Positions 26,820 through 47,951 of a stretch of 64,000 nucleotides of DNA are shown piece after piece. Within the stretch, counting starts at the first letter, position 1; each line of letters starts with the position of its first letter. The translations under genes were made by a program, and so were the position numbers. Source of the DNA: Pelobacter propionicus DSM 2379 (lineage in GTDB: Bacteria > Desulfobacterota > Desulfuromonadia > Geobacterales > Pseudopelobacteraceae); the NCBI RefSeq assembly GCF_000015045.1, contig NC_008609.1:1233344-1297343 (forward strand), read 5' to 3'. The notes under the pieces are model-generated. The model made no database searches. It was given only the letters and a program-made list of their open reading frames with translations, and had not been told where the DNA came from.

Positions 26820-27920
26820 ATGAGAACGATGTCCCTTGTGTCTATCGGCTTATTCATTGCGGTTGTCTTGTGTGGGATTCATCCCGCTTGGGCAGTTCAG
26901 CAGGAGACCATTCGCATTACCTGCTGGGAGGGGTATGCGGACACGGCGTTTGTTGATGATTTCAAGGCCATAATAAAGAAGAAGTACAACATAAATGTGG
27001 ACGTGAAACCCTCCTACGCAACCGGTCAAGAAGATTTCTACAATGCCGCCAAGAACGGCACCGCTGACCTCATTTCCCCCCCCGCCGACATGGCAAAATC
27101 TTCCAAGTTCAACTTTTTCAGAAAAGGGCGAGTGGTACTGGCTCCCCTTGACATGATAAATATTCCCAATGCAGCACATATGCTGCCGTTTTTCACGGCG
27201 GACACGTCTCTTGGCGTGGCTGGGAAGCGCTATGGCCTTCCCTATAACTGTGGTCCCTACGGGTTGGCGTTCAATGCCGACGTCGTCAAGGAGACTCCGT
27301 CAAGCTGGAATATATTCTGGGATCCGCAGTATGCCGGCAAATACACTATCAATAACAACTTCCATAAGGTCAATATCTGGATCACGGCCCTTGCACTCGG
27401 CTATAAGTACGAGGATCTGTTCGATATCGACCGGCTTGACCGTAGCAGGATCCAGCCCAGGTTGAATGAACTGGTCAAAGGGGCCAAGAGCCTCTGGGAC
27501 GGGGAAGCCAATGCTGACGAATTCCCCCAGTTGTCGTTGGCCACCACCTGGGGATTTGCGGTGGTGAAGGCAAATCAGAAGGGCGGCAACTGGAAACTGG
27601 CCACCGCGAAGGAAGGCGGAAGTGCCTGGATTGACTACTGGTGCATTACCCATGCAGCAAAAGGGATGAAGAAAAAACTGTGCGAAGAGTGGATCAATCT
27701 GCACCTGTCCCCCAAATACCAGGCAGCGGTTGTCAAGCAGCAGGGCGTCTCGCCGGTGGTCGACAATGTGGGTGATCTGGTGAGCGCTGAGGAGAGAAGC
27801 CTCTTCAATGTGGGCAACAACGACTACTTTAAGACCGTGGCAATCTGGCGGGTCATGGACAAGAAAACCGAGAAGGCCTTTGGTGAGATGTGGGAGATGG
27901 CAAAAAAACAGAGGCAGTAA
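26820..27920 (+). CDS. orphan periplasmic solute-binding protein, PotD-like
   Basis: A 366-residue protein with a Sec signal peptide ending at AWA (about residue 25). The mature part begins IRITCWEGYADTAFVDDFKAIIKKKYNINVDV, a spermidine/putrescine-type (family 1) binding protein fold, with YGLPYNCGPYGLAFNADVV and WDPQYAGKYTI typical of PotD relatives. No polyamine permease or ATPase is nearby, so it is an orphan. In the mxa locus of methylotrophs a binding protein homologue (MxaJ) accompanies the periplasmic enzyme; this gene may be its counterpart here. Ligand (ethanolamine, choline or polyamine) is unknown. AAAGGAGGAG precedes the ATG. Confidence 0.85.
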   Translation: MRTMSLVSIGLFIAVVLCGIHPAWAVQQETIRITCWEGYADTAFVDDFKAIIKKKYNINVDVKPSYATGQEDFYNAAKNGTADLISPPADMAKSSKFNFFRKGRVVLAPLDMINIPNAAHMLPFFTADTSLGVAGKRYGLPYNCGPYGLAFNADVVKETPSSWNIFWDPQYAGKYTINNNFHKVNIWITALALGYKYEDLFDIDRLDRSRIQPRLNELVKGAKSLWDGEANADEFPQLSLATTWGFAVVKANQKGGNWKLATAKEGGSAWIDYWCITHAAKGMKKKLCEEWINLHLSPKYQAAVVKQQGVSPVVDNVGDLVSAEERSLFNVGNNDYFKTVAIWRVMDKKTEKAFGEMWEMAKKQRQ

Positions 27921-28097: not shown

Positions 28098-28925
28098 ATG
28101 AAGGCATCGTTAAGAACACTGGCTTTGAGTTTGATGTTTGCCGTTGGAATGGGGGTGGGTACGTATGCCCATGCGCAGGACGCGGTAGCGGAACCGGCAC
28201 CGCCAGCCGGGTATAAACTGATCCCCGAGGATCTCACCGCCGACTTGAACGTGTCGCTCTACACGCAATACGTCTGGCGTGGATACGCGCTCAGCAAAGA
28301 CAGTCTGGTCATCTTTCCCACCCTGACCGTGGGCTACAAGGGATTTGCCTTTAATGTCTGGACGGATCTTGATACCGATTACGATGGTCTCGGGCCGGCA
28401 GGAGATTCGCACAACTGCAGGTTGTGGGAAACGGACTATGTCCTTACCTACAGCAACTCCTATGAGCCGTGGAAACTGAACTACACCCTGGGATGGATCT
28501 ACTACGACACGGATGGTACTGATGGTCTCACCCCCACCAAGAGCCAGGAGCTCTTTGTAACCCTCGGCCTGGATACGTTGCTTAAACCAACGTTCAGCGT
28601 CTTTCAGGAGATTGAAACAGGCCACGCCTGGTACTTCCAGTTGGGGCTTTCCCACAGCTTGGCCGTCTACAAGGACTGGTCCCTGGACCTAGCGGGAACG
28701 GTCAGCTACCTCAACAATAAATCAACCAACGACTTTTCCGATTTCCATGACGGCAACATCTCGGCCGGCCTGAAGATTCCGCTGAACAAATACCTCTCGA
28801 TTACGCCCAAGATTCAGTACTCGTTCCCGCTCAGTTCAGCCGCTTCCAAAGATATCGAGGCAGGCAGCCTGACTCGCGCGCACAACTTCGTTTACGGGGG
28901 TATTATATTCGACCTGGCAATCTAG
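28098..28925 (+). CDS. TorF-family putative outer-membrane porin
   Basis: A 275-residue protein with a Sec signal peptide (MKASLRTLALSLMFAVGMGVGTYAHAQ). The mature protein alternates aromatic and polar residues as a beta barrel does, and contains the TorF/Gcw_chp signature DLNVSLYTQYVWRGYALSKDS and the aromatic-ended C terminus NFVYGGIIFDLAI. Such proteins are proposed outer-membrane channels. AAGGAGGGTAAC precedes ATG 28098. Lying between a binding protein and an exported EutBC, it may admit the substrate. Confidence 0.85.
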   Translation: MKASLRTLALSLMFAVGMGVGTYAHAQDAVAEPAPPAGYKLIPEDLTADLNVSLYTQYVWRGYALSKDSLVIFPTLTVGYKGFAFNVWTDLDTDYDGLGPAGDSHNCRLWETDYVLTYSNSYEPWKLNYTLGWIYYDTDGTDGLTPTKSQELFVTLGLDTLLKPTFSVFQEIETGHAWYFQLGLSHSLAVYKDWSLDLAGTVSYLNNKSTNDFSDFHDGNISAGLKIPLNKYLSITPKIQYSFPLSSAASKDIEAGSLTRAHNFVYGGIIFDLAI

Positions 28926-28977: not shown

Positions 28978-31260
28978 ATGAAACGATTGTTTTTGATTGC
29001 AGCGATGCTTGTCGTTGGAATTCTGACGTTGAGCACGAACAGCCATGCCATTGCAATAAAAAGCGTAAAACCGGGTGAGGATGTTTTCAAGTACATCCAA
29101 CGGGTCAAAGGCTCGTTTGATCAGGTGCTGTATCAGCAGGTGATCGGCGCGTCAAACGCCTTCAAGGAGGGGGACAAGACCATCGGCGTAGCCGCCGATA
29201 CCAATACCAGCCGAGAAAACGCCCGGAAGCTTTTGGCAAATACCAAAATCAAGGATATCACCAATCACCCCTTGCATAATGACGACCTTTACAAGTTTAT
29301 CGCCAAGTCCGTTGATCCTGCCCAGTACGCTAAAATTAAAGACTGGACAATGGGCAGGATGAAAGCCTTCCTGCTGGACAAATCGGAAGCCGAAATCAAG
29401 TCGGTCATGTACGGCATGAACAGCGAAGTGGTCGGCTGTCTGCCCAAGCTGATGAGCAACAAGGAACTGATCGCGGTCAACCGGAAGATCTTCAACCCGC
29501 TTCCCGGAACCAAGATCGGCGCCAAAGGGTATCTGAGCGCACGCATCCAGCCCAACTCACCCACTGACGATCCCGAAGAGATCATGATGCAGGTGCTTTC
29601 TGCATTCTCATACGGCGTTGGCGATCTGGTGCTTGGCACCAACCCGGTGGACGGAACGAAAGAACAAACTGCACGGGTAGAGGCATCCCTCAAGGATGTG
29701 GTCGATACGTTCAAACTGAACGGTACCATTCCTTGGTGCGTCCTGGCCCATATTGACGTTCAGAGGGAGATATTCAACGAGAAACCGGAACTGATTGACT
29801 GCATGTTCCAGAGCCTTGCAGGAACCGATACGGCAAACAAGACGTTCGACATTTCCGTCGAGAAGATGGTCGACCACGCCAAGTCCCGCGCCGGACAGAG
29901 ATACGGTCTCTATTTCGAGACCGGTCAGGGCTCCGATTTCACCAACGGCGGTGCCGAAGGCGTCGACATGGTCGTACTCGAATCCCGCAAGTACGGGATG
30001 GCACGCGGTCTGCAGCAGGTTCTTGCCCAGGTTCAGCCCCAGGGTGCATATCTCCATGTCAATGATGTGGCCGGTTTCATCGGACCGGAAGTGTTCCGCA
30101 CCAAGGAACAACTGGTGCGCTGCTGCCTGGAAGACATCCTGATGGGCAAACTGCAGGGGATCACGATAGGTCTGGATATCTGTTCCACTCTGCACATGTC
30201 GGTAAGCCTTGACGACCTGGAGTGGTGCCAGGACCAGATCATGCCGGCAAATCCTGCCTATCTTATGGCTCTTCCCACCAGAAACGACCCGATGCTCAGC
30301 TATCTGACCACCAGCTATCAGGATCATGTGCGTATCCGCAGCAAGTTCGGCTACAAGGTTAACGATACCATGTGGGACTTCTTCAAGCGCATCCAGGTTA
30401 TCGACAAGAACGGCAAGCCGACCAAGCATTTCGGCGATCCGATCTGGGTCTACTACCAGTATTGCAAAGCCAAGGGTGACACACGCTCCCAGCAGGAAAT
30501 CATGGCCGAAGGCAAGCAGAAGTTCGACGCCATCCACAACACCTGGCTCAAGACCGGTAACAAGGTGCCTCTGGCATCCGGTTACGGAAAGAACATCTGG
30601 GACCTGAATCCGCAACTGGACAAGAAGATCCGTGAACTCTACGCCGACGCCAAAAAAGCCATCTGGGCCGAATTTACGCCGGAATTTCTCAAGAGCGTGC
30701 CTGACTCGGTTCAGCTGGGAACCCTGTCCAAGGATCGCGAAAACTACATCGTGCATCCCGAAACCGGTGAACAGCTGAACAAACAGTCTGTCGCGACTCT
30801 TCAGAAACTGCGTGATTCCTGGCAGGGGCAGACACCTGACGTGCAGATCGTCGTCTCCGATGGTTTGAACGCCAAGTCGATCATGGCTCCTGAGCATACG
30901 CTGCCGTACATCACGGCGCTGAGAAAAGAACTGCAGGCCGCAGGGTTGACCGCTGACAAGAAAAACATCGTCATCAGCAGTGGCCGCGTACGCGCAGGCT
31001 ACATGGTCGGTGATGTTCTGTTCAACAATGCCGATCCTGGAAAAGCCCGCGCCGTTGTTCATATCATTGGCGAACGCCCGGGTACGGGGCAGGACGCCTT
31101 CTCGGTATATATTGCCGCTCCCAAGGGAAAAGTATGGGCAGAGAAGAAGGTAGACCACAATATCGTGAAAGTGCAGTCCGGTATCTCCAAACAGGCTACC
31201 AAGCCTGCGGACGCAGCTAAACAGACCGTCAAACTGATCAAGGAATTGATGGCAAGCTAA
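28978..31260 (+). CDS. exported single-chain ethanolamine ammonia-lyase (EutB-EutC fusion)
   Basis: A 760-residue protein. Residues 1-24 are a clear Sec signal peptide (hydrophobic core, SHA cleavage site, no twin arginine). Residues about 27-490 match EutB; residues known in the enzyme to bind substrate or cofactor are kept: Arg189 and Gln191 (SARIQPN), Asn222 (GVGDLVLGTNP), Glu314 (YFETGQGS), Phe367 (GFIGPE), Asp400 (GLDICST). Residues about 540-725 match EutC, with DREnYIVHPETGEQL, VQIVVSDGLN, SGRVRAGYMVGD and GERPGTGQ at 698-705. The normal enzyme is cytosolic with two separate subunits and uses adenosylcobalamin to make acetaldehyde and ammonia. GGAGG precedes the ATG. Confidence 0.9.
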   Translation: MKRLFLIAAMLVVGILTLSTNSHAIAIKSVKPGEDVFKYIQRVKGSFDQVLYQQVIGASNAFKEGDKTIGVAADTNTSRENARKLLANTKIKDITNHPLHNDDLYKFIAKSVDPAQYAKIKDWTMGRMKAFLLDKSEAEIKSVMYGMNSEVVGCLPKLMSNKELIAVNRKIFNPLPGTKIGAKGYLSARIQPNSPTDDPEEIMMQVLSAFSYGVGDLVLGTNPVDGTKEQTARVEASLKDVVDTFKLNGTIPWCVLAHIDVQREIFNEKPELIDCMFQSLAGTDTANKTFDISVEKMVDHAKSRAGQRYGLYFETGQGSDFTNGGAEGVDMVVLESRKYGMARGLQQVLAQVQPQGAYLHVNDVAGFIGPEVFRTKEQLVRCCLEDILMGKLQGITIGLDICSTLHMSVSLDDLEWCQDQIMPANPAYLMALPTRNDPMLSYLTTSYQDHVRIRSKFGYKVNDTMWDFFKRIQVIDKNGKPTKHFGDPIWVYYQYCKAKGDTRSQQEIMAEGKQKFDAIHNTWLKTGNKVPLASGYGKNIWDLNPQLDKKIRELYADAKKAIWAEFTPEFLKSVPDSVQLGTLSKDRENYIVHPETGEQLNKQSVATLQKLRDSWQGQTPDVQIVVSDGLNAKSIMAPEHTLPYITALRKELQAAGLTADKKNIVISSGRVRAGYMVGDVLFNNADPGKARAVVHIIGERPGTGQDAFSVYIAAPKGKVWAEKKVDHNIVKVQSGISKQATKPADAAKQTVKLIKELMAS

Positions 31261-31270
31261 ACACTGAATG

Positions 31271-31313
31271 GCCCCAAAGAGGCATCTTTACGGTGTCTCT
31301 TTGGGGCTTTCTT
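31271..31313 (+). terminator. rho-independent terminator after the EutBC fusion gene
   Basis: GCCCCAAAGAG (31271-31281) pairs perfectly with CTCTTTGGGGC (31297-31307) across a 15-base loop, followed by TTTCTT. It separates the binding protein-porin-EutBC transcript from the transporter and Mxa-like genes, or attenuates read-through. Confidence 0.88.
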
Positions 31314-31380: not shown

Positions 31381-32163
31381 ATGGATACAGAGCAAACACT
31401 AGCTCAGGCTGACTACATCATTCCTTCCCTGGCTCAAAAAATTCAACTCTATATAGCGGCGCTGAAAACGGTCCCCTTCTACCGTTATGGGGAAATCGGC
31501 AATATCTGCTACACCATTGGCAAAAACATCCTGGATGGCGTCATTCTTTTCACCATGTTTTCAATGGCTGAACAGGAACTGAAGGTTGCTGCCATACTGG
31601 GAGTGGTTGTGAAATACGCGTATCCGGGCATTAGCATGATCTCAAGTACCTGTATTTCAGGATTTATAGACCATCTGGAAGCGGTTCGCGACACCACCAG
31701 GCAGATTGCCCGCCTTATCAGGGCACAGTTAGGGGTAGCCGTGGGTCAGGCCCTGGGTGCCGTTTGCCTGTTACTCTGTTTTCCTCCCGTATTTACGTTC
31801 TTTTTCGCCAGTGTATCCTTTAAGGCCTATCTGCTGGTGGCAATCTACCTGCTGCACCACGTGTGTGACGGATCGTCGCAAATCATCGAGGGCAGAACCT
31901 GGTTCAAGATCATCGAAATAAAAATCCGCAGAGGGCACAATGCGAAGCTTTCCCAGAATTTCTGGGTAATATATACTCTGGCCCAAAACTTTCAGCTTCT
32001 TTTGGGGCAACTCTTCATCTGGTCTGCCTTGGGCATAACCAGCGAGTTCTCCCCTGATCTGACATCTGTCGCTTTGAGCATTACCGTCTATTGCGGCTTT
32101 TTCTGCGTCGTTATTTCGAAATTCATTCTTCCCGCTGCCTACAAGCTAAAGCTCTGCTCCTGA
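31381..32163 (+). CDS. integral membrane protein of unknown family
   Basis: A 260-residue protein that I do not recognise. It has about five hydrophobic segments (around residues 50-75, 80-100, 118-145, 147-165, 205-255) and ends KFILPAAYKLKLCS. Polar stretches between them include HLEAVRDTTRQIARLIRAQLG and EIKIRRGHNAKLSQN, likely cytoplasmic. The start codon lacks a clear ribosome site. It lies directly after the EutBC terminator and 25 bases before the ABC ATPase gene, so it probably belongs to the transporter-Mxa transcript and may serve as a permease or anchor. Confidence 0.7.
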   Translation: MDTEQTLAQADYIIPSLAQKIQLYIAALKTVPFYRYGEIGNICYTIGKNILDGVILFTMFSMAEQELKVAAILGVVVKYAYPGISMISSTCISGFIDHLEAVRDTTRQIARLIRAQLGVAVGQALGAVCLLLCFPPVFTFFFASVSFKAYLLVAIYLLHHVCDGSSQIIEGRTWFKIIEIKIRRGHNAKLSQNFWVIYTLAQNFQLLLGQLFIWSALGITSEFSPDLTSVALSITVYCGFFCVVISKFILPAAYKLKLCS

Positions 32164-32188: not shown

Positions 32189-32950
32189 ATGCTTGTCGTT
32201 GACACACTTCATTTTTCCATTGATGGCAAAAAGATTCTGGATGGCATATCCGCATGTTTCGAGCCGCGCAAGATTCATGGGATCATCGGTCCGAACGGAT
32301 CCGGCAAATCCACCCTGTTGAAGAATATCTGCAGGCTCTGGGAGCCGCAGTCCGGGGCTATCGTTCTCAACGGCAAAAATCTGGCCAAGATGCCTCGGAA
32401 AGAACTGAGCACGCTGGTTACCCTGGTTCCGCAGAACACGACCATCGGTTTTCCCGTATCGGTGTTCGACATCGTAGCCATGGGGCGAAACCCGCATCTG
32501 GGAAGGTTCGAGGGGGTAGGGCCGAGGGACCGGGAAATTATCGAGCGGGCGCTATGGCAGACCAATATCCATGCCCTGAAGGATAGAAACATCAACGAAT
32601 TGTCCGGCGGAGAGGGGCAACTGGCGATAATCGCCCGGGCTATCGCGACCGAGGCGCCTCTGATACTGCTGGATGAGCCGACCTCGGAACTTGACGTCAA
32701 GCACACGCTGGAGATCGTCAAGCTGTTATGCGAACTCAAGGATCAGGGCAAAACCATACTGGTGACCATCCATGACCTGAATCTGGCCAGAAAGTTGTGT
32801 GATACAATTACGATATTGTGCGCCGGGAAGTTGTTTTTCTCGGGCGCTCCGGAGGACGCCTTTTCCGAGGAAAACATCAGCCAGGTTTTTCAGGTGAGGG
32901 TGAGGGAGTACAAACACGATGGCACGACCTTCCTTGATTTCCGTTCCTAA
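32189..32950 (+). CDS. FecE/BtuD-type ABC transporter ATP-binding protein
   Basis: A 253-residue ATPase of the iron-siderophore/cobalamin uptake class. Walker A is GPNGSGKS (34-41), the signature is LSGGEGQ (variant of LSGGQ), Walker B is LILLDEP, and the switch histidine is in VTIHD. The MGRNPHLGRF block is typical of FecE/BtuD proteins. Together with the next two genes it makes a complete importer. The substrate class could be a corrinoid, siderophore or heme; the neighbourhood argues for a corrinoid. Confidence 0.92.
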   Translation: MLVVDTLHFSIDGKKILDGISACFEPRKIHGIIGPNGSGKSTLLKNICRLWEPQSGAIVLNGKNLAKMPRKELSTLVTLVPQNTTIGFPVSVFDIVAMGRNPHLGRFEGVGPRDREIIERALWQTNIHALKDRNINELSGGEGQLAIIARAIATEAPLILLDEPTSELDVKHTLEIVKLLCELKDQGKTILVTIHDLNLARKLCDTITILCAGKLFFSGAPEDAFSEENISQVFQVRVREYKHDGTTFLDFRS

Positions 32951-32969
32951 GAGCATCGAAACATCCGCC

Positions 32970-34001
32970 ATGCGAAGCTGTCGGATACTCAGCGCACTTC
33001 TCGCGTTCTGCTGTCTGGTTGCCTGTGCCCCCCCGTCCGGGGTGAATCACGGTCAGAAAGCGGTTCCCCCCCTTGATATGCACAGGTTGATCACAGAGCT
33101 GAGCCATGTCAGGGGCAAAACCCAGGCTGAAGGCGCATGGCCCCGAAAAATACGCTACAGCTTTGATGTGCATGACTTGAAGACGGATACGTTCCGGCAG
33201 GAGACAAAAAGCTTTGAGATTCAGAAGAAGCCGCTGCGCATAATACCCCATGCGGTGGGCGTCGCCGAGATCTTGTGGGCAATCTGCCCGCGCGAGCGCT
33301 TGATTGCCTTTAATGATCTTACCGCTGATCCGGACTCGAGCTTTATAGCCGACAAGGCACGGCAGCAGGGCCCAATCTTCAGATCAAAACAGACGGAACT
33401 GGTGATCGGCTACCGCCCGGATCTGGTCTTTACGGTGTTTTATTCCGGTGCTGATTTCAAGGAAAAGCTCAGCCAGGCACAGATTCCCAGCTTTGAACTC
33501 GGGCATTTCGGGTCGATCGAGTCGGTACAGCGGCAGATTCTGCTCATAGGAGACGTCATCGGTGAGGAGGGCAATGCCCGTGCTCTGGTGAATCTCATGA
33601 ATGAGAGGATCCGGGACCTTAAGGCCCGGACCCCCCACAGAGATCACCCGATCCGCGTTCTGTATTATGACGAGGGGGGCTATGTTCCCGGCAGATTTTC
33701 AAATTTCAACTCGATCTGCGACATGATCGGTGCCGTCAATGTGGGGACTGAGCAGGGCATTGCATCCTGGTCGCGGATCGACTACGAAACCCTGCTCAAG
33801 TGGAACCCGGACGTCATTATCGTTCCCGATCGCAGCAAGCTGAAGGAACTGCTTGTGTCGAATCGTCTGCTGTCCCACGCCAGGGCCATACGGAGCAACT
33901 CCGTGTATGACGTCCCCGGCGTGTATCTGCGGGCTTCATCCCAATACATGCTTCTCAGCGCCGATCTGATCGCGGGGATCATCTACCGGCAGCCCCGCTA
34001 A
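32970..34001 (+). CDS. BtuF/FecB-type substrate-binding lipoprotein
   Basis: A 343-residue lipoprotein. Signal peptide MRSCRILSALLAFCCLVAC with lipobox LVAC (Cys19). The mature part has the class III binding protein layout: LRIIPHAVGVAEILWAICPRERLIAF, YRPDLVFTVF, a long connecting helix near VQRQILLIGDVIGEEGNARALVNL, and WNPDVIIVPD. I chose ATG 32970 rather than 32919 because it starts at the signal peptide and lies after the ATPase stop. It lacks clear ribosome-site support. About 80 residues more than BtuF before the first lobe, with a charged insert. Confidence 0.85.
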   Translation: MRSCRILSALLAFCCLVACAPPSGVNHGQKAVPPLDMHRLITELSHVRGKTQAEGAWPRKIRYSFDVHDLKTDTFRQETKSFEIQKKPLRIIPHAVGVAEILWAICPRERLIAFNDLTADPDSSFIADKARQQGPIFRSKQTELVIGYRPDLVFTVFYSGADFKEKLSQAQIPSFELGHFGSIESVQRQILLIGDVIGEEGNARALVNLMNERIRDLKARTPHRDHPIRVLYYDEGGYVPGRFSNFNSICDMIGAVNVGTEQGIASWSRIDYETLLKWNPDVIIVPDRSKLKELLVSNRLLSHARAIRSNSVYDVPGVYLRASSQYMLLSADLIAGIIYRQPR

Positions 34002-34007
34002 TCCGTC

Positions 34008-35036
34008 ATGGTGAAAAAGGACTATTTCATAATCGCACTCCTGATGGCCCTGGTTGTTGCCGGTGGTCTGCTCTCCCTCTCGTCGGGCTCATGGTCGATT
34101 CCTGCCTCCCATGTGGTCATGATCGTTTTGTCAAAATTGGGGCTGTACGCCGGCGCCATCAGTGACGTGGAGGCTTCCATTGTCTGGGACGGCCGGCTTC
34201 CGCGCTTTCTGGTCGCCTTTCTGGTGGGCTTTTCCCTTGGCGGAGCAGGTACGATCATGCAGGGGATATTCAAGAATCCCATGGCCAGTCCCGGAGTCAT
34301 GGGCATCGACGCAGGTGCGGCGCTGGGCGCCGTGCTGGCCATTTACCTGGGGCTTGCATCGTACTCGCTGGTGGCGCTCCCCTGCGCGGCGATCGTTTTT
34401 TCCCTGCTCACCCTGGTCATGGTCTTCGCCATCGCCACATCAGGAGGGCGGACGTCGGTTTCAACGCTGCTGCTGGCGGGCATTGCCCTCAGCCTGGTGT
34501 TCGGCGCCCTCACATCATTTGTCATTACCCTGAGCACCGCGGAGTTCGACGTTGGGCGGGTGATCGTGAACTGGCTCATGGGTGACCTTAACAACCGCTC
34601 CTGGGAGCACGTTGCCATCGTCATTCCGACCACTCTTGTCGCACTCCTGGGAACCCTCTTTTTTGCCCGGGACCTTAACCTTCTCATGCTCGGAGAAGAA
34701 ACCGCGGCAAACCTGGGAGTCAACATACGACGCGCCCGCAATGGTCTTTTGCTCTTTTCCTCCATCGAAACCGGCGGAGCCATCGCGGTGTCGGGGGTCA
34801 TCGGCTTTGTCGGGCTGGTGGCGCCGCATATCATGCGTAGCCTCACCGGACCGGACAACCGGAAGCTGATATTCTCTTCCGGGCTGCTGGCGGCGGTTTT
34901 CATTATCTACGCCGATCTTTTTGTGCGGCTGATCGTAACGGTGGACCTGAAGGTGGGGATCATCACCTCCATGCTCGGCGGCCCGTTTTTTCTCTATCTG
35001 ATCGTAAAGCACAGAAAACAGTTTGAATACATGTGA
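34008..35036 (+). CDS. FecCD/BtuC-type ABC transporter permease
   Basis: A 342-residue polytopic permease with about ten membrane helices. Family marks are WDGRLPRFLVAFLVGFSLGGAGTIMQGIFKNPMASPGVMGIDAGAALGAV near residues 57-110 and the ATPase-coupling end GVIGFVGLVAPHIMRSLTGPDNRKLI. It begins 6 bases after the binding-protein stop. This completes an importer of the cobalamin/siderophore class. The gene order ATPase, binding protein, permease is unusual but all three are present and intact. Confidence 0.94.
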   Translation: MVKKDYFIIALLMALVVAGGLLSLSSGSWSIPASHVVMIVLSKLGLYAGAISDVEASIVWDGRLPRFLVAFLVGFSLGGAGTIMQGIFKNPMASPGVMGIDAGAALGAVLAIYLGLASYSLVALPCAAIVFSLLTLVMVFAIATSGGRTSVSTLLLAGIALSLVFGALTSFVITLSTAEFDVGRVIVNWLMGDLNNRSWEHVAIVIPTTLVALLGTLFFARDLNLLMLGEETAANLGVNIRRARNGLLLFSSIETGGAIAVSGVIGFVGLVAPHIMRSLTGPDNRKLIFSSGLLAAVFIIYADLFVRLIVTVDLKVGIITSMLGGPFFLYLIVKHRKQFEYM

Positions 35037-35088: not shown

Positions 35089-36123
35089 ATGGGAACGCAC
35101 ATGCAGGAACCAATCGCAGACGGCGCAAGCACGGCGGAGCTTTTTGAACAGTACGTGGGCATGGTTCAGCGGATAAAAGCTGAAATCGCCAAAGTTGTCA
35201 TCGGCCAGGAGGAGATGATCAGCCTGATGATCCATGCGCTCCTCTCCAAGGGACACATACTGCTTGAAGGTGTTCCCGGGCTGGCGAAAAGCCTTGCCGT
35301 TGAGACCTTCGCGAAAGTGATCGGCGGTAATTTCAAACGTTTTCAGTTCACCCCGGACAAGATGCCCAGCGACATAACCGGCACCATGGTGTGGAACGAG
35401 AAGGAAGACGAGTTTGAATTCCATGCCGGCCCCATCTTCTGCAACATTTTCCTGGCCGACGAGATAAACCGGGCTTCGCCGAAGGTGCAATCCGCACTGC
35501 TGCAGGCGATGCAGGAAAAGGAAGTGACCGTGGAGTGCACGCACTACGACATCCCGCGTCCGTTCATGGTGCTTGCCACGGAGAACCCCATCGAGCAGAT
35601 CGGCACCTATCCCCTGGCAGAGGCCCAGGTCGACCGTTTCATGGTCAAATATGATGTCGGCTATATGCAAAAAGATGAGGAGTTCGAGCTCATACAGAGG
35701 AAAAACAGTAACTTTGACCAGCTCAAAAGCGACATACACACGGTTCTCACCCTCGATGACATACTGGCAGTCCAGCAGCTCATCCATGACCGGATCAGGG
35801 TGAGCCAGAAGGTCATGCGCTACATACTGAACATCTGCACAGCAACGCGCCCGCGCGACACCTATGCCCCGCAGGAGTTTGTGGCTGATATTCACCAGTA
35901 CATCAGGCTCGGCGCATCGCCTCGGGCCTCTGAATCGCTTCTGGGACTGGCAAAAGTGTATGCCTTTGGCCAGCAGCGTGACTTCGTTACGTTCGACGAT
36001 GTCGTCCTATGCGCCCGGCACGTGCTCAGGCATCGTATTCTGCTCAACAGCACCGCGCTGTCGCAGCAGGTCAGCGCCGACACGATTGTCCAGGAAATCC
36101 TTAAAATGGTCCAGCCGTACTGA
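35089..36123 (+). CDS. MoxR-family AAA+ ATPase (MxaR-like)
   Basis: A 344-residue AAA_3 ATPase. Walker A is GVPGLAKS (about 61-68), Walker B FLADEINRASPKVQSALLQAMQE, sensor 1 ATENPIEQIGTYPLAEAQVDRF, and a C-terminal lid. MoxR proteins act as chaperones with VWA-domain partners to mature enzymes; the first described one serves methanol dehydrogenase. ATG 35089 is my choice; TTG 35080 and ATG 35101 are also in frame and no ribosome site decides. It opens a six-gene set matching mxaRSACKL. Confidence 0.9.
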   Translation: MGTHMQEPIADGASTAELFEQYVGMVQRIKAEIAKVVIGQEEMISLMIHALLSKGHILLEGVPGLAKSLAVETFAKVIGGNFKRFQFTPDKMPSDITGTMVWNEKEDEFEFHAGPIFCNIFLADEINRASPKVQSALLQAMQEKEVTVECTHYDIPRPFMVLATENPIEQIGTYPLAEAQVDRFMVKYDVGYMQKDEEFELIQRKNSNFDQLKSDIHTVLTLDDILAVQQLIHDRIRVSQKVMRYILNICTATRPRDTYAPQEFVADIHQYIRLGASPRASESLLGLAKVYAFGQQRDFVTFDDVVLCARHVLRHRILLNSTALSQQVSADTIVQEILKMVQPY

Positions 36124-36131: not shown

Positions 36132-37010
36132 ATGGTCAAATCGGAAAAGAGTCTGTTGTCCAAAAAGGAGCTGCTGGAGATATTCATCAGTCACCGGGTG
36201 CATTCACCCTTTCCCGGGGACTGGGAGAGTGTCTTCAAGGGGCTGGGATACGAGTTCTGGTCGCTCAGGGAGCTTGAGCCCGGCGATTCGTTCCGGAACA
36301 TCGACTGGAAGGCGACGGCCAGGACCGGCACGTTTTATGTGCGCGAATTTCTTGCCGAGAGCTACTTCAACGTTATGATCCTGTACGACATCAGCAACTC
36401 GGTGCGCTTCGGCAGGAAGGAGTTGCTCCAGGCGCACATCGCCGTGTCGCTGGCATACAGCGCGATCCTGGGCAACAACGGTTGCGGATTGATCCTTTTC
36501 GCGGACGATAGTGTCCGCTTTATTCCGCCGCGCATGGGCAGGTCGCATTTCATGGAGATTCTGGATGCCATTGCCCATGCGGAACCGGTTGCCTGCGGTG
36601 CGACTAATTTGGGCGCCGCACTGACCAAGCTGATCAACGAAGTCCCGGAGAGCCTTGCCTTCGTACTGTCTGATTTCATGTATCCGCTTGATTTCAGATA
36701 CAGTTTTCACCGCACGGCACACGGGACCGACAAGCATGAGGTCAAGGCGATCCAGGTGCTCGAGGAGTGCGAAATCGAGCTGCCTCCGCATTCGAAAGGT
36801 ATTCTGCCGCTCTACGACTATGAGAGCGGAAGGACCGTGGCGCTGGATATGGGAAAATGGAAGGCGTATAACGCTGCCATGAGTCAGCTGCGGTTGGCTA
36901 CCAAAGAGCGTCTGAACCGCGCCGGAATCGATCTGGTAACCATCAGCCCGGCGGATGATTTTGTCCGAAAAATAGATGATTTTATGAAGCGATCTCCATC
37001 AAGATCTTAG
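36132..37010 (+). CDS. DUF58 protein (MxaS-like)
   Basis: A 292-residue soluble protein with the DUF58 signature GDWESVFKGLGYEFWSLRELEPGDSFRNIDWKATARTGTFYVREFLAE (residues 24-72), followed by a degenerate VWA-like fold beginning YFNVMILYDISNSVRFG and LAFVLSDFMYPLDF. DUF58 genes regularly follow moxR genes, and in methylotrophs this position is mxaS. It begins 8 bases after the ATPase stop. Its DISNS replaces the metal-binding DxSxS of VWA domains only partly (DISNS retains the pattern). Confidence 0.87.
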   Translation: MVKSEKSLLSKKELLEIFISHRVHSPFPGDWESVFKGLGYEFWSLRELEPGDSFRNIDWKATARTGTFYVREFLAESYFNVMILYDISNSVRFGRKELLQAHIAVSLAYSAILGNNGCGLILFADDSVRFIPPRMGRSHFMEILDAIAHAEPVACGATNLGAALTKLINEVPESLAFVLSDFMYPLDFRYSFHRTAHGTDKHEVKAIQVLEECEIELPPHSKGILPLYDYESGRTVALDMGKWKAYNAAMSQLRLATKERLNRAGIDLVTISPADDFVRKIDDFMKRSPSRS

Positions 37011-37027: not shown

Positions 37028-38650
37028 ATGACTTACCGCTTTACAAAATGCTGCGCCATCATACTGCTCCTTGTCTCCATATTGGCGGACTCTGCTTCCG
37101 TGGCTTTTGCCAGGGCTGCCGCCTTCTCCTTTGACTCGGTCTGGTTTTATCGCGACGGGACCAGGGTTGTCCCGGAGATCGGCACGAACTGGCTCACGGT
37201 CGTCTTTGACCCACGCTCCATCCCCGATGGCGACAGTTTCGAATCCAGCGCTGCCCCTGACGATGCCGCTACCAGCGGTGGCGCCAGCGAGATCAGCGAT
37301 CCGGCCGGGGACTTTATCAAGAAGAAGGCCAGGGCCATGGTCAAGGCCAACAGGCGTCTCAGCGAGTATCTCTACGACCCCAACCTTGCCGAAGGCGCCT
37401 GCTTCCTTCGGATGCGCAACGGGCTGAAGCCCCAGGAAATACGCCAGCTTGTCAGCCGTTTGAGCCGGGACGGAACCGTTGCCTACGTCCATCCGACGGT
37501 GATCATCAGCGGCAAGACCTACGCGTACTTCAACGCCTTCGACCTGAAATGGAAGACAGGCACTTCCGAGGCCCAGCGGCAATCCCTGCTGCGGGCATCC
37601 CATGCGATGCTCGATGAAAACGATCCGTTGGCAACCCGCCATACGGTCAATGTTGCCAGGATTCCCTTTTTCAAGGCGTTCAACCTGCTTGCCGAGGATA
37701 TCAGGGTACTCAGGGCCACACCGCGTCTGGTGGAAGTAAAACCGTCGATCAGCGCCAAGCTGGCCCTTTTCATGAGCGGGGGGAACATCGGTGACAGCAT
37801 TCCCTTTACGCTCACCATTGCCTTCTCCGAGCTGGTGAAAATCGATCCAAGCTCCATTGCGACCCTCAATCTGCGGCCGCCTGAACTTCAGAAGGAACTC
37901 TTTGACTGCACCTTTGACCCGTACGATTACGCATCGTCAGTCAACAAGAGCCCGATCGTCATCACCGGCCGGATGGCGGTTTACGCCCCCGGAGAGTTTA
38001 GTCTGCCGCCCGTCAAGATCAGCTATTCGTGCCCGTCCTGTCCCGACAGCAGCGTGCGTACCATTGAGACGGAGCCGGTCCTGTACAGGGTTTCCTCCAT
38101 CATCCCAAAAGCCAAGTCGGAAAACCGGCTGATCGTGCCAACCGACCCGGTTGCTTACGTTTCTCGCCATGACGCGTTGCGCCGGCAGTCCCTGCGCTAT
38201 CTCTGGTTCGCCATGCTCTGCTTTGCCTGTCTCGTTCCCTGCGCCCTATGGGCCTTCAGGCTGCGCCCCAGGGTCACCGCCGAACGGAACCTCCTGGAGG
38301 AACGCAAAAGGGCTCTCCAGCTGGCAGGCCGGCTGCGTGTGTTGCTGCTTGACACGCCTGCCGTTCCTCACTGGAGCTACCTGGGGGAAGTCGGCGGGTT
38401 GTTGCGCGAGTATCTGCTGCTGCTCTACGGAATCGATGCAAAGTATCGGGGAGGGAGCGGCAGGCGGTTCATGGAAACCATCGCAGAGCTTCTTCCGCCG
38501 GAGTGCTGCGGCCCATTGCGGCGCATCTTTTCCGACATCGATGACAGTGTTGCCCTCGAATCAGAAAGCTATTCGGATATTGAACGGTTGCAGCGCGATA
38601 TTCTGACTATTGTGGATCAGACCGCCCGCGATGGCGCAGGCCGGGGGTAA
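37028..38650 (+). CDS. membrane-anchored BatD/MxaA-like protein
   Basis: A 540-residue protein with a Sec signal (about residues 1-30), a large periplasmic part, one membrane segment near residues 390-410 (YLWFAMLCFACLVPCALWAF) and a cytoplasmic tail of about 125 residues. The block before the membrane (ITGRMAVYAPGEFSLPPVKISYSCP) is like the Ig-type domain of BatD and MxaA. Residues about 105-245 contain two similar units ending VAYVHPTVII and LVEVKPSI, recalling subtilase propeptides. MxaA in methylotrophs is needed for calcium insertion in methanol dehydrogenase. This one is longer than usual. Confidence 0.72.
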   Translation: MTYRFTKCCAIILLLVSILADSASVAFARAAAFSFDSVWFYRDGTRVVPEIGTNWLTVVFDPRSIPDGDSFESSAAPDDAATSGGASEISDPAGDFIKKKARAMVKANRRLSEYLYDPNLAEGACFLRMRNGLKPQEIRQLVSRLSRDGTVAYVHPTVIISGKTYAYFNAFDLKWKTGTSEAQRQSLLRASHAMLDENDPLATRHTVNVARIPFFKAFNLLAEDIRVLRATPRLVEVKPSISAKLALFMSGGNIGDSIPFTLTIAFSELVKIDPSSIATLNLRPPELQKELFDCTFDPYDYASSVNKSPIVITGRMAVYAPGEFSLPPVKISYSCPSCPDSSVRTIETEPVLYRVSSIIPKAKSENRLIVPTDPVAYVSRHDALRRQSLRYLWFAMLCFACLVPCALWAFRLRPRVTAERNLLEERKRALQLAGRLRVLLLDTPAVPHWSYLGEVGGLLREYLLLLYGIDAKYRGGSGRRFMETIAELLPPECCGPLRRIFSDIDDSVALESESYSDIERLQRDILTIVDQTARDGAGRG

Positions 38651-38656: not shown

Positions 38657-39760
38657 ATGAGCATTCAGTATCCCTGGGCACTGCTGCTCCTGGCGATCAT
38701 ACCGGCAGTGCTGGTTGCCACTAAAAAGTGCGCCGTCAGGACCGGTTTTTCCTGGGTAGCTGCGTTAGACCGGGAATTGAGGCCCGGGCCGCTAAAAGCG
38801 TACGGCGCCGATCTGCTTGCCGCGACCGCCATGGTCCTGATCGTGCTTGCCATCGCCAACGTGCAGTATTCCAGTTACTGGCAAAAGACGTACCCAGAGT
38901 CCAGGTGGATAATGCTGGTTCAGGATCTCTCCGGATCCATGGGAAGGTCCGGTGAGGAGGGCGCCAGCCAGACCCTGGGAGATGTCGCCCTCGATGGGGC
39001 CTCGTCTTTCATCGATATGCGCAAGAAGGACGACCTGATCGGTATTATCGCTTTTTCCGATGTGGCGCAGCTGGTTGCGCCTCCCTCCTTTGACAGGGAA
39101 ATTCTGAAGAGAAAGCTGGAACTGCTCAGGAGAAAAAACGATTCCCCGCTGTTCAGGGACCTGGTCTTGGGGGGGGAGACCAATGCTTCCTATGCCACCT
39201 GGCTTGCGGTATGCGTTTTCTTCATGTTTCTTCCCGAGGAAAACCAGCCATCCTACGAGCAGATAAATGACATGCGTTATTCGCTGATGGGGCGCAGCGG
39301 CACCGCGCTGCACATCCCCGCGCAACTGAAAGACATAGATTTCGGCCGGGGAATGGCTATTGTTCTCTTTACCGACGGTCGCATAGAATCGAGCCAGGGC
39401 AACGGAGACGTGGAGAGCGGGCTGCTCAATTTCATTAATGTTATCAGCCTGGTGAGGCGGTTGGGCATACGGCTCTATCTCGTCGTCGTGGGGGGTGAGG
39501 TTGCCAATGACGTGCGCCAGGCCATTGAGGAGCCAGTGGGCGGCTCTTCCGCTGGTCACGTATTCAGCATGCCCCGCTCCCTGGACAAGGCACGGATTGC
39601 CTCGGTCTACAACAACATCAATACCATGGAGAAAAACAGGTTGCTGGTAAAACTGGAGAAACGGAAAAAGGATACCAGGAGGCCGCTGGCGCTGGCGGCT
39701 GCCGTTATGCTGGCAGCCTGTTGCCTCGTGCGCATTCTCCCCGCCACACGAAGGATCTGA
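38657..39760 (+). CDS. VWA-domain membrane protein (BatA/MxaC-like)
   Basis: A 367-residue protein with two N-terminal hydrophobic segments (about residues 6-22 and 50-67), a periplasmic or cytosolic VWA domain with an intact metal site DLSGSMGRS (Asp90 to Ser94) and a C-terminal membrane segment (LALAAAVMLAACCLVRIL). The domain has an insertion of about 50 residues with a hydrophobic stretch ASYATWLAVCVFFMFLPEE. It corresponds in place and type to mxaC. Six bases separate it from the preceding gene. Confidence 0.87.
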   Translation: MSIQYPWALLLLAIIPAVLVATKKCAVRTGFSWVAALDRELRPGPLKAYGADLLAATAMVLIVLAIANVQYSSYWQKTYPESRWIMLVQDLSGSMGRSGEEGASQTLGDVALDGASSFIDMRKKDDLIGIIAFSDVAQLVAPPSFDREILKRKLELLRRKNDSPLFRDLVLGGETNASYATWLAVCVFFMFLPEENQPSYEQINDMRYSLMGRSGTALHIPAQLKDIDFGRGMAIVLFTDGRIESSQGNGDVESGLLNFINVISLVRRLGIRLYLVVVGGEVANDVRQAIEEPVGGSSAGHVFSMPRSLDKARIASVYNNINTMEKNRLLVKLEKRKKDTRRPLALAAAVMLAACCLVRILPATRRI

Positions 39761-39763
39761 ACG

Positions 39764-40522
39764 ATGATCAAAAACACCAGAATATCCATAGCACTCATCA
39801 TTGTCGTGGCCCTCACCTTCACGACGTTGGGCGTATACTGCAGCCGCGAGTACCGTACTCTCAACGAGCGGGAAGTGAGCGAGAGGCTGCTGCGGCAGGA
39901 GCTACACCGGGTGGACGCAGTGACGGACGACGCTGCCGCCGTCGCGGCCTACAGGAAGATTTCCCCGACGCTCCCCGAGATCCAGTTGCGCATCGTGCAG
40001 CGTCAATGGCGCATCGCCCTGGAGCTTCTGGGATACATGCAGCGCGCCAGAAGCAATAGTGAACTGCAGAACGAGACCGTCGTATACGATGGCCAGCTGA
40101 AAAGACTTCTTGATGAGATTGTCGAGCGCTGCGGGGCTACTCTGGCGGATGCGGCGTCCCTGCGGCCCGATATCACCTGGCGTTTATACAATACGGCCGG
40201 GGCCGCCAAGGTGTTGAGCGCGCTGGTGATGCTGGAAAGCGAGCAGAATGCGGACAAGGTGCAGGGTGTCATGCGCGATGCGCTGGCGGACTTCAAGTCC
40301 GCCATAGAAGCCGTGGACAAATCCGGTGTGTCGCCTCTGTACAAAAACATTCCCCGCTGGAACTTCGAGGTGCTCAACGGCGAGGAGAATGTCCGGAAAT
40401 TCGAGGTTTCTATGACTGACATGGAAAAAAACCAGGCGCTGAAAGAAAACCTTGAAACGCTGATACCCGATATCGGCGGCTATGCCCCCGGCGAGCCCAT
40501 GGATACACGGGTAAAAAAATAA
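39764..40522 (+). CDS. small membrane-anchored protein (position of MxaK)
   Basis: A 252-residue protein with one N-terminal membrane segment (ISIALIIVVALTFTTLGVYCS) and a helical, charged periplasmic part (for example DAVTDDAAAVAAYRKISPTLPEIQLRIVQRQWRIALELL). I do not recognise the sequence itself; the MxaK assignment rests on position between the two VWA genes, the single anchor and the size class. It starts 3 bases after the preceding stop. Confidence 0.65.
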   Translation: MIKNTRISIALIIVVALTFTTLGVYCSREYRTLNEREVSERLLRQELHRVDAVTDDAAAVAAYRKISPTLPEIQLRIVQRQWRIALELLGYMQRARSNSELQNETVVYDGQLKRLLDEIVERCGATLADAASLRPDITWRLYNTAGAAKVLSALVMLESEQNADKVQGVMRDALADFKSAIEAVDKSGVSPLYKNIPRWNFEVLNGEENVRKFEVSMTDMEKNQALKENLETLIPDIGGYAPGEPMDTRVKK

Positions 40523-40537: not shown

Positions 40538-41551
40538 ATGAATCTGGAACATAGCGGCACCCTCTGGCTGCTGCTCGCCATCCCCTGCTTCCTCTGCTCT
40601 GCGCTCGTATCCCATAAAAAGGCGAGCACGTTGCTGTACCGCTTCGCCCAGACGAAAAAACGGCCCGTTCCCGCTATCGTTTCCACCCTGTTCCTGAGTC
40701 TCGCCTTGGCCGCGCTGATTCTTGCCCTGGCCGGCCCCAGGCTGCAGTACACAAAAACTGTCTTCAATCGCAGCGGTATCGATCTGGCCATCGGGATCGA
40801 TGTGTCAAAGTCGATGCTGGCGGAAGATGAAACACTTCCCCCGGAGGGGAAGAAACTCTTCAGCATACCGAACCGCCTGAACCGCGCCCGCTACTGCGCG
40901 CTTACCATTCTGAGCGCTCTCAAGGGGGAGCGTGTGGGCGTGTTCCTGTTCGCCAGCAAGGGGGTTCCCATCGTTCCCCTGACCAACGACTATGGCTACT
41001 GCCAGTACATCCTCAAACACGCCAATGACTCCACCATCTCAACTCCCGGCAGCGACCTGGGGCAGGCGATAACGACCGGTATTTACCTGTTCGAGGAGAG
41101 CTCCCGCACGTCGGTCAAAAGCATCGTATTGATTTCTGACGGCGAGGACATCAACGAGGACAGCTCCGTGATGCATGAGGCTGCCCAGCGCGCCGCGGCC
41201 AAGGGAATCGCCATCTACACGGTCGGTACCGGCAGGGGCCAGGGGGTCATGGTTCCCATCAGGGACGCCATAGGTGCCGCCATAGAGGGGTATTACCAGG
41301 ATGAAGACGGTTCGTACCTGAAAACGCGGCTGGAGCAGGACAGCTTGAAGAGCATTTCAAACACCAGCGGAGGCCGTTACTTCAGCGCCCATGTAGCGCG
41401 AGTCGAGGAAGATGTCGTTGATGCCCTGCTGAAGCGCGCCCGAACCATCGAATATACCAGGGCCACGGAACTCGCCTGGTACGATCTGTCGCCGGCGCTG
41501 CTCGGCGCGGCGCTGCTGTTTTTACTGATCGGCATAATCGCCGGACGCTGA
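40538..41551 (+). CDS. VWA-domain membrane protein (BatB/MxaL-like)
   Basis: A 337-residue protein. Two N-terminal hydrophobic segments (about 6-20 and 45-67) precede a VWA domain with intact metal site GIDVSKSML (Asp88, Ser90, Ser92), ALKGERVGVFLFASKGVPIVPLTND and VLISDGEDINED, and a final membrane helix (ALLGAALLFLLIGIIAG). This is the BatB/MxaL architecture. It is the last gene of the six-gene set; a terminator follows. Paired VWA proteins of this kind work with MoxR ATPases. Confidence 0.9.
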   Translation: MNLEHSGTLWLLLAIPCFLCSALVSHKKASTLLYRFAQTKKRPVPAIVSTLFLSLALAALILALAGPRLQYTKTVFNRSGIDLAIGIDVSKSMLAEDETLPPEGKKLFSIPNRLNRARYCALTILSALKGERVGVFLFASKGVPIVPLTNDYGYCQYILKHANDSTISTPGSDLGQAITTGIYLFEESSRTSVKSIVLISDGEDINEDSSVMHEAAQRAAAKGIAIYTVGTGRGQGVMVPIRDAIGAAIEGYYQDEDGSYLKTRLEQDSLKSISNTSGGRYFSAHVARVEEDVVDALLKRARTIEYTRATELAWYDLSPALLGAALLFLLIGIIAGR

Positions 41552-44656: not shown

Positions 44657-45514
44657 TTATGCCGGTACGCGCAGAATTGCCAGCTGGTCCAGCAGCTGCT
44701 GGTGGCTGCGGGGGGGAGGGGTGTCTCCGGATGCCAGCCCCGCGGCCATGAGCGAGTGATGCAGTTGGGCCACCCGGGGTATGCCGATGCCGAAACTCTC
44801 CAGCCGCTCCAGTACCCAGGGGAGCTCGCTGGCCGGCCAGTTGGCGGCGCAGCGTCCCGTCTCCAGCACGCTGACCCGGTCGGCCCACTGGTAGGCGAAG
44901 TCGATGTCATGGGTGGCGATGATGATGGTCATGCCGCTGTCGTGGAGCCGCTCCAGTACCACCGTCAGCTCTGCCTGCATGGCGGCGTCCAGGCCGGCCA
45001 TGGGCTCGTCCAGGATCAAAAGCTCCGGCTCCATGGCCAGCACCCCGGCGATGCAGACCCGCTTCTTCTGGCCGTAGCTCATGGCATGCACCGGGCGGTC
45101 GGCGTGGGATGCCATGCCCACGGCCGTCAGGGAACGCTCGACCCTGTCGCGCACGACCTCCGTTGTCAGCCCCAGGTTCAAGGGGCCGAAGGATACGTCC
45201 TCGCGTACGCTGGCCGAGAAGAGCTGGGCATCGGGATTCTGGAAGACCACACCGATGCGGGAGCGGAGTCTGCGTAATCCCTTGCGTCCGTAATCCAGGG
45301 GAGTCCCGTCCAGCAGCACCTGGCCAGCCTGGGGACGCAGCACGCCGTTGCACTGCAGAAAGAGGGTTGTCTTGCCCGCGCCGTTCAGCCCCAAGAGGGC
45401 AGTGCGCCTCCCCTGGTGAAAGGAGATGGAGCAGTCATCCAGCCCCCGACTTCCGTCGGGATAGCGGTAACTGACCCCGCACAGTTCCAGTATGCTTTTT
45501 CCGGTTGGTGTCAT
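44657..45514 (-). CDS. cbiO: cobalt ECF transporter ATP-binding protein CbiO
   Basis: A 285-residue ATPase. Walker A GLNGAGKT, Q-loop VFQNPDAQLF (typical of ECF ATPases), signature MSYGQKKRV, Walker B LLILDEPMAGLD and IATHD. The ATG overlaps the cbiQ stop by 4 bases. It drives cobalt uptake with CbiM, CbiN and CbiQ. The C-terminal region beyond residue 225 is an extra accessory part (RLESFGIGIPRVAQLHHSLMAAGL). Confidence 0.95.
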   Translation of the reverse strand: MTPTGKSILELCGVSYRYPDGSRGLDDCSISFHQGRRTALLGLNGAGKTTLFLQCNGVLRPQAGQVLLDGTPLDYGRKGLRRLRSRIGVVFQNPDAQLFSASVREDVSFGPLNLGLTTEVVRDRVERSLTAVGMASHADRPVHAMSYGQKKRVCIAGVLAMEPELLILDEPMAGLDAAMQAELTVVLERLHDSGMTIIIATHDIDFAYQWADRVSVLETGRCAANWPASELPWVLERLESFGIGIPRVAQLHHSLMAAGLASGDTPPPRSHQQLLDQLAILRVPA

Positions 45515-46257
45515 GGGTGCATCACCGCCAGGATGATCAGGAGGCAGCCCGCCGTCAGGCCGACCAGGATGCTGCTGGCGCCGTCGGGATACGTTGGGGT
45601 CAGGAATCTGAGCGGGCCGTCATTGGCGCGGGAGAGAGCCGCCTGCTGCAGAGCCCGGGAGCGTTGCCAGACCTGGACCGTGAGCGCCGCCACCATGATG
45701 CCCAGGGAGCGCAGCGCCAGCCGGGGGGTGGCGTAACCCAGGCGCGACGCCTGGGCGGTGACGATGTCGTGGGTCGCCTCCAAGAAGACGAACAGGGTGC
45801 GGTAGCAGAGGGTCATCAGGTCGGTCAGTACCTCCGGAAAGCCCAGGCGGCGCAACAGCGAGATAAGGTCGTTGAGCGGCGTGGAGAGCGCCAGGAAGAG
45901 CAGCGCAGCCAGGCAGACCAGAGAGCGTCCGGCAACGTGCAACGCCTCCCGCAACTGGACATCCCCGCTGCTTAAGGTCAGCCAGGGGAAGCTGGCTTGC
46001 CACCCCAGGGACACCGCCAGGGTCGTGCCGCTTACCAGCAGGAACAGGAGCGGCGCGGCGCTAACGCGCAGATAGCAGCGCAGGGGAATGCGTGCCCCGC
46101 GGCAGGTGACGGCCGCCAGGAGCGCGGCCAACAGGAGGGCGATGGTCGGGGTTGATGCGGCAAAGGCGGCAATCATGCCGCAGAGCGCAAAGACGCATTT
46201 GGCGGCGGGGTGTACCCGCCGCCAGCGATTGGAGTAGGAGAGCTGCTCGATCAGCAT
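45511..46257 (-). CDS. cbiQ: cobalt ECF transporter membrane subunit CbiQ
   Basis: A 248-residue T component. Several hydrophobic segments lie in the first two thirds, and the cytoplasmic coupling region carries LISLLRRLGFPEVLTDLMTLCYRTLFVFLEATHDIVTAQASRLGY, the CbiQ pattern with Ala-Arg-Gly-like coupling motifs. It overlaps cbiN by 1 base and cbiO by 4, all in the cbiMNQO order. Confidence 0.94.
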   Translation of the reverse strand: MLIEQLSYSNRWRRVHPAAKCVFALCGMIAAFAASTPTIALLLAALLAAVTCRGARIPLRCYLRVSAAPLLFLLVSGTTLAVSLGWQASFPWLTLSSGDVQLREALHVAGRSLVCLAALLFLALSTPLNDLISLLRRLGFPEVLTDLMTLCYRTLFVFLEATHDIVTAQASRLGYATPRLALRSLGIMVAALTVQVWQRSRALQQAALSRANDGPLRFLTPTYPDGASSILVGLTAGCLLIILAVMHP

Positions 46258-47260: not shown

Positions 47261-47301
47261 GATGTTTCTCCTTTCCGTGCAACGCGGCAAACGCCATAAA
47301 A

Positions 47302-47334: not shown

Positions 47335-47394
47335 CCGTATTCAAAGGTCCTTGTGGATTCGCTGTGCACTCTCCCGGTCCCCCGGGAACTAGCT

Positions 47395-47937: not shown

Positions 47938-47951
47938 CACACAAGCCCTCC

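Follow-up and report, generated by a model that had tools for sequence, protein, structure and literature searches.

The window analysed here is a stretch of 64,000 nucleotides from Pelobacter propionicus DSM 2379, and the gene under study, eutBC, occupies positions 28978-31260 of its forward strand: a single frame, open throughout, that encodes a Sec-type signal peptide and both parts of ethanolamine ammonia-lyase (EAL), EutB and EutC, in one chain of 760 residues, just as the initial annotation had read it. The EutB domain (residues 52-483; Pfam, E 1.7e-151) covers positions 6-434 of the 435 positions of the family model, and the EutC domain (residues 534-758; Pfam, E 1.5e-34) scores 119.8 bits against a cut-off of 25.8; with the NCBIfam models, the protein reaches 664 bits for the EutB subfamily (cut-off 554) and 95 bits for the EutC equivalog, which lies below the cut-off of 230. 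It is the sole EutB match in its own genome (4.24 Mb, three contigs searched).

The putative signal peptide takes up about residues 1-24 (28978-29049, forward strand), with an n-region that contains KR, a hydrophobic stretch of 12 residues with a mean of 3.06 and a cleavage site of small residues; the sequence reads MKRLFLIAAMLVVGILTLSTNSHA-IAI, with cleavage predicted after SHA. The alternative that the true start lies past residue 25 is ruled out by the local sequence: the ATG is preceded by a strong Shine-Dalgarno element, AAAGGAGGT, an in-frame stop is located six codons upstream, and there are no start codons between residues 18 and 50. The first candidates past residue 25 are the GTG codons at residues 50 and 55, and a start at residue 50 would lose residues 26-49, a stretch that is mostly conserved across the family.

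The neighbouring genes are located on the same strand. Upstream of eutBC are the genes of an extracellular solute-binding protein (SBP_bac_6; 26820-27920; PF13343, E 3.1e-47), with an N-terminus that looks signal-like by eye and with neither a permease nor an ATPase of its own visible immediately next to it, and of a TorF/Gcw_chp-like outer-membrane porin (28098-28925), a weak match with both TIGR02001 (E 7.5e-5) and PF09694 (E 0.0017) below cut-off. Directly after eutBC, a terminator-like intrinsic hairpin of 17 pairs (31270-31308) has been found as a consensus match, and because of this strong hairpin we do not take a single operon, from the solute-binding protein to the second von Willebrand A (vWA) gene, as established. 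It is followed by the gene of a 260-residue membrane protein (31381-32163), predicted to be all-helical (AlphaFold2, pLDDT 90.5), which matches no Pfam family at E-values up to 1 and no NCBIfam model; it is half-MFS-like at best, and its best Z-score of 16.0 is near the background of unrelated helical bundles. An ABC transporter comes next, comprising an ATPase (32189-32950; the closest NCBIfam model is a corrinoid ABC ATPase, below cut-off), a periplasmic binding protein (Peripla_BP_2; 32919-34001; PF01497, E 5.7e-24) and a FecCD permease (34008-35036; PF01032, E 2.4e-90; the closest NCBIfam model is BtuC, below cut-off).

The last six genes of this series form a module whose order (MoxR, DUF58, X, vWA, Y, vWA) resembles that of the mxaRSACKL genes, with four of the six members detectably homologous to Mxa proteins. 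Our Mxa references were taken from the methanol dehydrogenase regions of three genomes, in the family of a Microvirga host, and were named by their order beside MxaI. A MoxR-type AAA ATPase (35101-36123; AAA_3, E 2.3e-59) aligns with MxaR (hhalign, 99.88%), a DUF58 protein (36132-37010; PF01882, E 2.9e-43) with MxaS (98.6%) and a vWA protein (38657-39760; VWA_2, E 3e-7) with MxaC (94.7%), while a vWA/BatA-like protein at the mxaL position (40538-41551; VWA, E 3.2e-10) aligns best with MxaC (94.2%; MxaL, 14%). The two remaining proteins differ from this pattern: a 540-residue protein at the mxaA position (37028-38650) and a 252-residue protein at the mxaK position (39764-40522; DUF7266, E 0.0026, below cut-off) have no confident family, and show no similarity to the single MxaA and the single MxaK sequences that were compared. 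Methanol dehydrogenase, the periplasmic enzyme that mxaRSACKL helps to mature, uses PQQ and not adenosylcobalamin (AdoCbl). The mxaRSACKL genes have been called essential for its function (PMC4109929), and MoxR proteins have been described as maturation factors that are chaperone-like (PMC3893208), in the parts of these sources that we consulted. Because MoxR/vWA modules are widespread, the mxa parallel is a lead and not a proof.

The eutBC protein is not a one-off: a scan of GTDB genomes has returned 412 relatives, and in all of the best 80, which were examined at 53-87% identity, the matches span both the EutB and the EutC parts (three of these matches, L015, L018 and L020, stop early, at or near contig or frame ends). 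Among the hosts of these 80 are Thermodesulfobacteriota, rhizobia, Myxococcota, Bacteroidota and Planctomycetota. eutBC is the only EutB match in 16 of 20 genomes selected from those that carry the 80 loci. A sample of 297 genomes from the same phylum contains 26 with a match of any kind, and in 14 the protein is of the exported type (at least 54% identity); 10 of these 14 sites coincide with the window itself or with loci of the best 80 relatives. The distribution in the family of an Ensifer host is patchy, since 3 of its 151 genomes carry eutBC, the centrally chosen host being counted. A search of plasmids gave 149 matching records, 47 of which contain 80% or more of the query at a single place; of the 40 plasmid matches listed, the best 25 are rhizobial, at 57.6-59.6% identity, and the remaining 15 are below 33%. 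The pSymA plasmids of Sinorhizobium meliloti carry a homologue, annotated as EutB in some records; in one of these loci (L143), it adjoins glucoamylase-family, glycosyl transferase, phosphoketolase and AdhP genes. A 3.7-Mb genome from the genus of locus L045, presumably that of P. carbinolicus, carries two eutBC copies at a distance of 28 kb from each other; each has a Sec signal, and the query finds no further match there.

The enzyme itself appears to be intact. The AlphaFold2 model, built from an alignment of 40 rows (a selection from the 80 loci, the window protein and three cytosolic fusions), has a pLDDT of 90.8; residues 35-493 superimpose on the large subunit of E. coli EAL (3abo_A) with a Z-score of 45.3 and 2.0 Å over 438 residues, and residues 486-760 on the small subunit (7xrm_B) with a Z-score of 24.0 and 2.5 Å over 228 residues. 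Arg189, Gln191, Asn222, Glu314, Phe367 and Asp400, which we take to be the catalytic and substrate-surrounding residues from their roles in E. coli EAL, align with the E. coli and Listeria sequences and are invariant in all 40 rows, the three cytosolic fusions among them, in agreement with the initial annotation, which had listed them as kept. For the motif GERPGTGQ, also listed as kept, this holds in part: GERPG is invariant in the alignment, while the letters beyond it vary. A complete EutB domain, a EutC domain recognised by both Pfam and fold, and the six active-site residues thus place the protein within EAL; both the model and the residue conservation support the earlier view that eutBC is an intact enzyme, and the invariance of the active-site residues rules out a decayed relative.

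With respect to the EutB/EutC enzymes of known structure (E. coli, 3abo and 7xrm; Listeria, 2qez), the likeness extends to both subunit folds, the active-site residues and GERPG, whereas the window protein differs in being one chain with an N-terminal export signal, instead of two chains, and in having no full-length EutA in its genome. To our knowledge, EAL has always been described as an intracellular enzyme, and those that have been characterised are cytoplasmic.

The export signal is a trait of the clade, as judged from the N-terminal sequences of its best 80 members. Nine relatives at 79-87% identity (L010-L018) have Sec signals similar to that of the window protein, so that the clean Sec signal peptide noted at the outset, with its basic n-region, hydrophobic core and cleavage site, is kept in its orthologues. 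Among the best 80 of the 412 relatives, 41 have a Sec-like signal, 38 have a twin-arginine (Tat) signal and one (L070) has neither, according to a simple classifier of our own, based on hydrophobicity and motifs and distinct from a SignalP-type predictor, with four calls set by hand. EutB-EutC fusions with signal peptides, for which a database search had been suggested, are found in 79 of the 80. In rhizobia a Tat start typically reads LSRRDLLV, in Syntrophaceae MSRRKFL; RK replaces RR in 5 of the 38.

The remaining possibility for the location of the enzyme inside the cell, that it is cytoplasmic and that its hydrophobic N-terminus is spurious or non-functional, has in its favour the cytoplasmic location of the characterised EALs and the synthesis of AdoCbl in the cytoplasm; the sequences of the relatives argue against it, not only because Sec-like or twin-arginine signals occur in 79 of the 80, but also because the type of signal switches on the tree. 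A criterion similar to our classifier picks out 2 of 79 cytosolic proteins encoded nearby, versus 58 of 61 proteins that are expected to be secreted (solute-binding proteins, 19 of 21; porins, 24 of 25; ABC binding proteins, 15 of 15), and it flags 60 of 71 exported-type eutBC frames, whose upstream extensions were left untrimmed. No signal was seen in 18 EutB or EutBC proteins from outside the exported clade (16 scored and the other two inspected by eye); an arginine-pair motif is present in three of them, but no hydrophobic stretch accompanies it, and one (L005) has a hydrophobic stretch ahead of the start that agrees with those of its relatives. We regard a cytoplasmic location as highly improbable, and export of the window protein as very likely.

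A further alternative accepts that the enzyme faces the periplasm, but takes the N-terminal segment to be kept as a membrane anchor that tethers it there, with lipoproteins in some lineages. Lipobox-like cysteines do follow the hydrophobic stretch in six Tat-type relatives (L036, L075, L076, L078, L083 and L087) and in one of the Sec type (L063); against an anchor, the window protein and several Geobacteraceae relatives have a cleavage site after the hydrophobic region, in the variants SHA, SYA, SGA and SSA, followed by residues that are largely conserved, and we consider tethering improbable.

A quick maximum likelihood tree of 86 rows, with SH-aLRT as its only measure of support, joins the exported-type proteins, L070 included, into one branch (support 99), which is sister to the cytosolic fusions L004-L006 (99); two changes suffice to account for the Sec and Tat types. 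These cytosolic fusions, together with L129, which is outside the tree, resemble the window protein in having EutB and EutC in one frame, at 37-39% identity, and differ from it in that no signal peptide is seen. Three genomes of one family (L120-L122) also have EutB and EutC in one open frame, 705-754 residues long, with an identity of about 34% and no signal; given these, the fusion may have arisen more than once. The sequences suggest that the exported clade is a branch of the EAL family with its site of action beyond the inner membrane.

The two signal types differ in their gene neighbourhoods. Sec-type loci often share a cassette, its genes recurring in the order of the window in many of them, that consists of the solute-binding protein, the porin, eutBC, the membrane protein, the BtuCDF-like ABC transporter and the MoxR/DUF58/vWA module. 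Counting only loci with enough flanking sequence, homologues occur at Sec and Tat loci, respectively, as follows: the solute-binding protein at 19/30 and 0/35, the porin at 21/30 and 0/35, the 260-residue membrane protein at 26/34 and 0/36, the ABC binding protein at 18/28 and 0/34, the FecCD permease at 18/27 and 0/33, MoxR at 17/27 and 0/33, DUF58 at 16/25 and 0/33, the 540-residue protein at 15/24 and 0/32, and the first vWA protein at 14/22 and 0/31. The ABC ATPase has been omitted because generic ATPases match, as they do at 30-36% identity in three Tat loci (L040, L042 and L055). Despite these strong raw counts, the link between the Sec signal and the cassette is not a statistical proof, because the tree yields two independent pairs only. 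Among the 297 same-phylum genomes, the 260-residue protein occurs in 10, eight of which have an exported-type EutBC (exceptions G279 and G368), and the 540-residue protein in eight, six of which have one (exceptions G279 and G298, the match in G298 being weak). Three Sec loci of the Candidatus Tharpella type (L021, L026 and L033) have homologues of a permease and of an aldehyde ferredoxin oxidoreductase near eutBC, and no 260-residue protein or MoxR gene in the flanking stretch examined, which is short for L026; the permease of L021, the one scanned of the three, is of the Asp-Al_Ex/TrkA_C type.

The eutBC fusion itself has been known since 2012 in P. carbinolicus. The genome paper, in the parts seen, describes two fused genes, eutBC1 and eutBC2 (Pcar_0491 and Pcar_0467), in a setting that resembles ours: a solute-binding protein and a multi-membrane protein, a corrinoid-type ABC transporter, vWA proteins and no eutA, with cobalamin genes also reported alongside eutBC (PMC3543383). 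Its authors read the cluster as one of substrate uptake and cobalamin supply, and section 12, which deals with eutBC, makes no mention of a signal peptide, export or periplasmic catalysis (PMC3543383). Strains of P. carbinolicus are said there to grow on ethanolamine or choline (PMC3543383); for P. propionicus, no report of growth on ethanolamine was found in the literature searched. Nor was a paper on an exported EAL found among the matches listed in our literature search, which mostly left subscription papers outside. Among corrinoid enzymes, the reductive dehalogenase PceA is a reductase with no adenosyl-radical chemistry and with a fold unrelated to EAL. It shares with the Tat-type relatives a twin-arginine signal on a corrinoid enzyme (PMC5500849, seen in part).

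The two divergent copies of P. carbinolicus, whose authors suggest that the ethanolamine and the choline lyase may be distinct enzymes (PMC3543383, in the part seen), also lend some weight to the idea that the exported protein has another job, acting on a different amino alcohol, such as choline or aminopropanol, or scavenging corrinoids as a binding protein. The corrinoid-type ABC transporter among the genes next to eutBC, the TonB receptors and cobalamin riboswitches farther away, and an identity to the nearest cytosolic fusions of 38-39%, low enough to allow a changed substrate, are compatible with it as well; however, the six substrate-surrounding residues do not vary in the 40 rows, and they would be superfluous in a protein that does no more than bind, so that we judge another job to be rather unlikely.

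Apart from eutBC, on the opposite strand, lies a cobalt/tetrapyrrole uptake cluster (44657-63395) with CbiM, three TonB receptors, a CobN/Mg-chelatase-like protein, ExbB and TonB, and two further genes that appear cobalt-transporter-like by eye. Two cobalamin riboswitches (47395-47569 and 53900-54207) are located on that strand, at least 16 kb downstream of eutBC; none was found beside the window eutBC at the gathering threshold, and among 12 further loci one was found, about 1.1 kb downstream of eutBC in L045, so that riboswitch control of eutBC was rejected. CbiD and further genes of cobalamin synthesis lie near eutBC in loci of the Pelobacter type.

As initially remarked, the window has no eutA: the only EutA match of the genome is at 3.62 Mb, where it covers 44 residues (28.9 bits, just above the family cut-off) in a frame 432 residues long, and a scan with the family model found no full-length EutA in the genome. 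The missing eutA argues little, because full-length EutA occurs in only one of the seven scanned genomes that have an ordinary split EutB; its absence was therefore dropped as a sign of a changed system. The locus thus departs from the canonical cytosolic eut system both in lacking separate, unsignalled EutB and EutC and in lacking a genomic eutA, the latter being a weak distinction, since six of these seven genomes likewise have no full-length EutA.

The window also contains no aldehyde dehydrogenase gene, as had been stated: none of the eight PF00171 matches of the genome is inside it, and the several matches to aldehyde dehydrogenase and aldehyde ferredoxin oxidoreductase are likewise elsewhere. 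At the relatives' loci, where one member per group of neighbours was scanned for enzyme families, 9 of the 80 have a homologue of aldehyde ferredoxin oxidoreductase no more than about 10 kb away, and 16 (15 rhizobial loci and L038) have one of zinc alcohol dehydrogenase nearby, nine of these 16 together with phosphoketolase; a few loci have acetate kinase and phosphotransacetylase. These neighbouring enzymes fit acetaldehyde as the product.

Our best reading, which we hold to be probable, is that eutBC is a single-chain, AdoCbl-dependent ethanolamine ammonia-lyase, exported from the cytoplasm and active at the periplasmic face of the membrane. It is favoured by the signals of 79 of the 80 relatives, their union in one clade, the invariant active-site residues, the EAL fold and a EutB that is mostly the sole one of its genome; what speaks against it is the score of the EutC half under the NCBIfam equivalog cut-off, and the 8 of 34 testable Sec loci without the 260-residue protein, the commonest member of the cassette. 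According to this reading, the chain would cross the membrane unfolded, by the Sec pathway, the predicted EutB-EutC unit would fold in the periplasm and there receive AdoCbl, the porin would let ethanolamine in, perhaps with the solute-binding protein handing it on, and eutBC would split it into ammonia and acetaldehyde, the latter diffusing to the cytoplasm for consumption by aldehyde oxidoreductases or alcohol dehydrogenases. We infer a radical B12 activity in the periplasm.

The cofactor is the harder part of the proposal. AdoCbl is made in the cytoplasm and is light-labile, and we know of no route that supplies it to the periplasm. Enzymes of the Tat branch could be exported pre-loaded with the cofactor; in the Sec branch, as gene order might hint, the BtuCDF-like transporter and the MoxR/vWA module may supply, insert or recycle the corrinoid. 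A bolder version of the preferred reading, which we offer tentatively as a possibility, would make the whole clade one of extracytoplasmic adenosyl-radical B12 enzymes: Tat would export the holoenzyme, while in the Sec branch a MoxR/vWA machine that replaces EutA would load the enzyme with AdoCbl, or rid it of damaged cofactor, from across the membrane, with the BtuCDF-like transporter recovering the corrinoid.

If eutBC does work as proposed, 5'-deoxyadenosyl radical chemistry occurs in the periplasm, for which we know of no description, and either free AdoCbl or the holoenzyme must reach that compartment; the gene content of the cassette suggests where the cofactor route might be sought, and the Sec/Tat split, together with the MoxR/vWA module, would make trans-membrane delivery of a cofactor open to direct test. 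Export would also be an alternative to the microcompartment for keeping the production of acetaldehyde out of the cytoplasm, and would add a little-noticed client of B12 in rhizobia, including the pSymA plasmids of Sinorhizobium meliloti.
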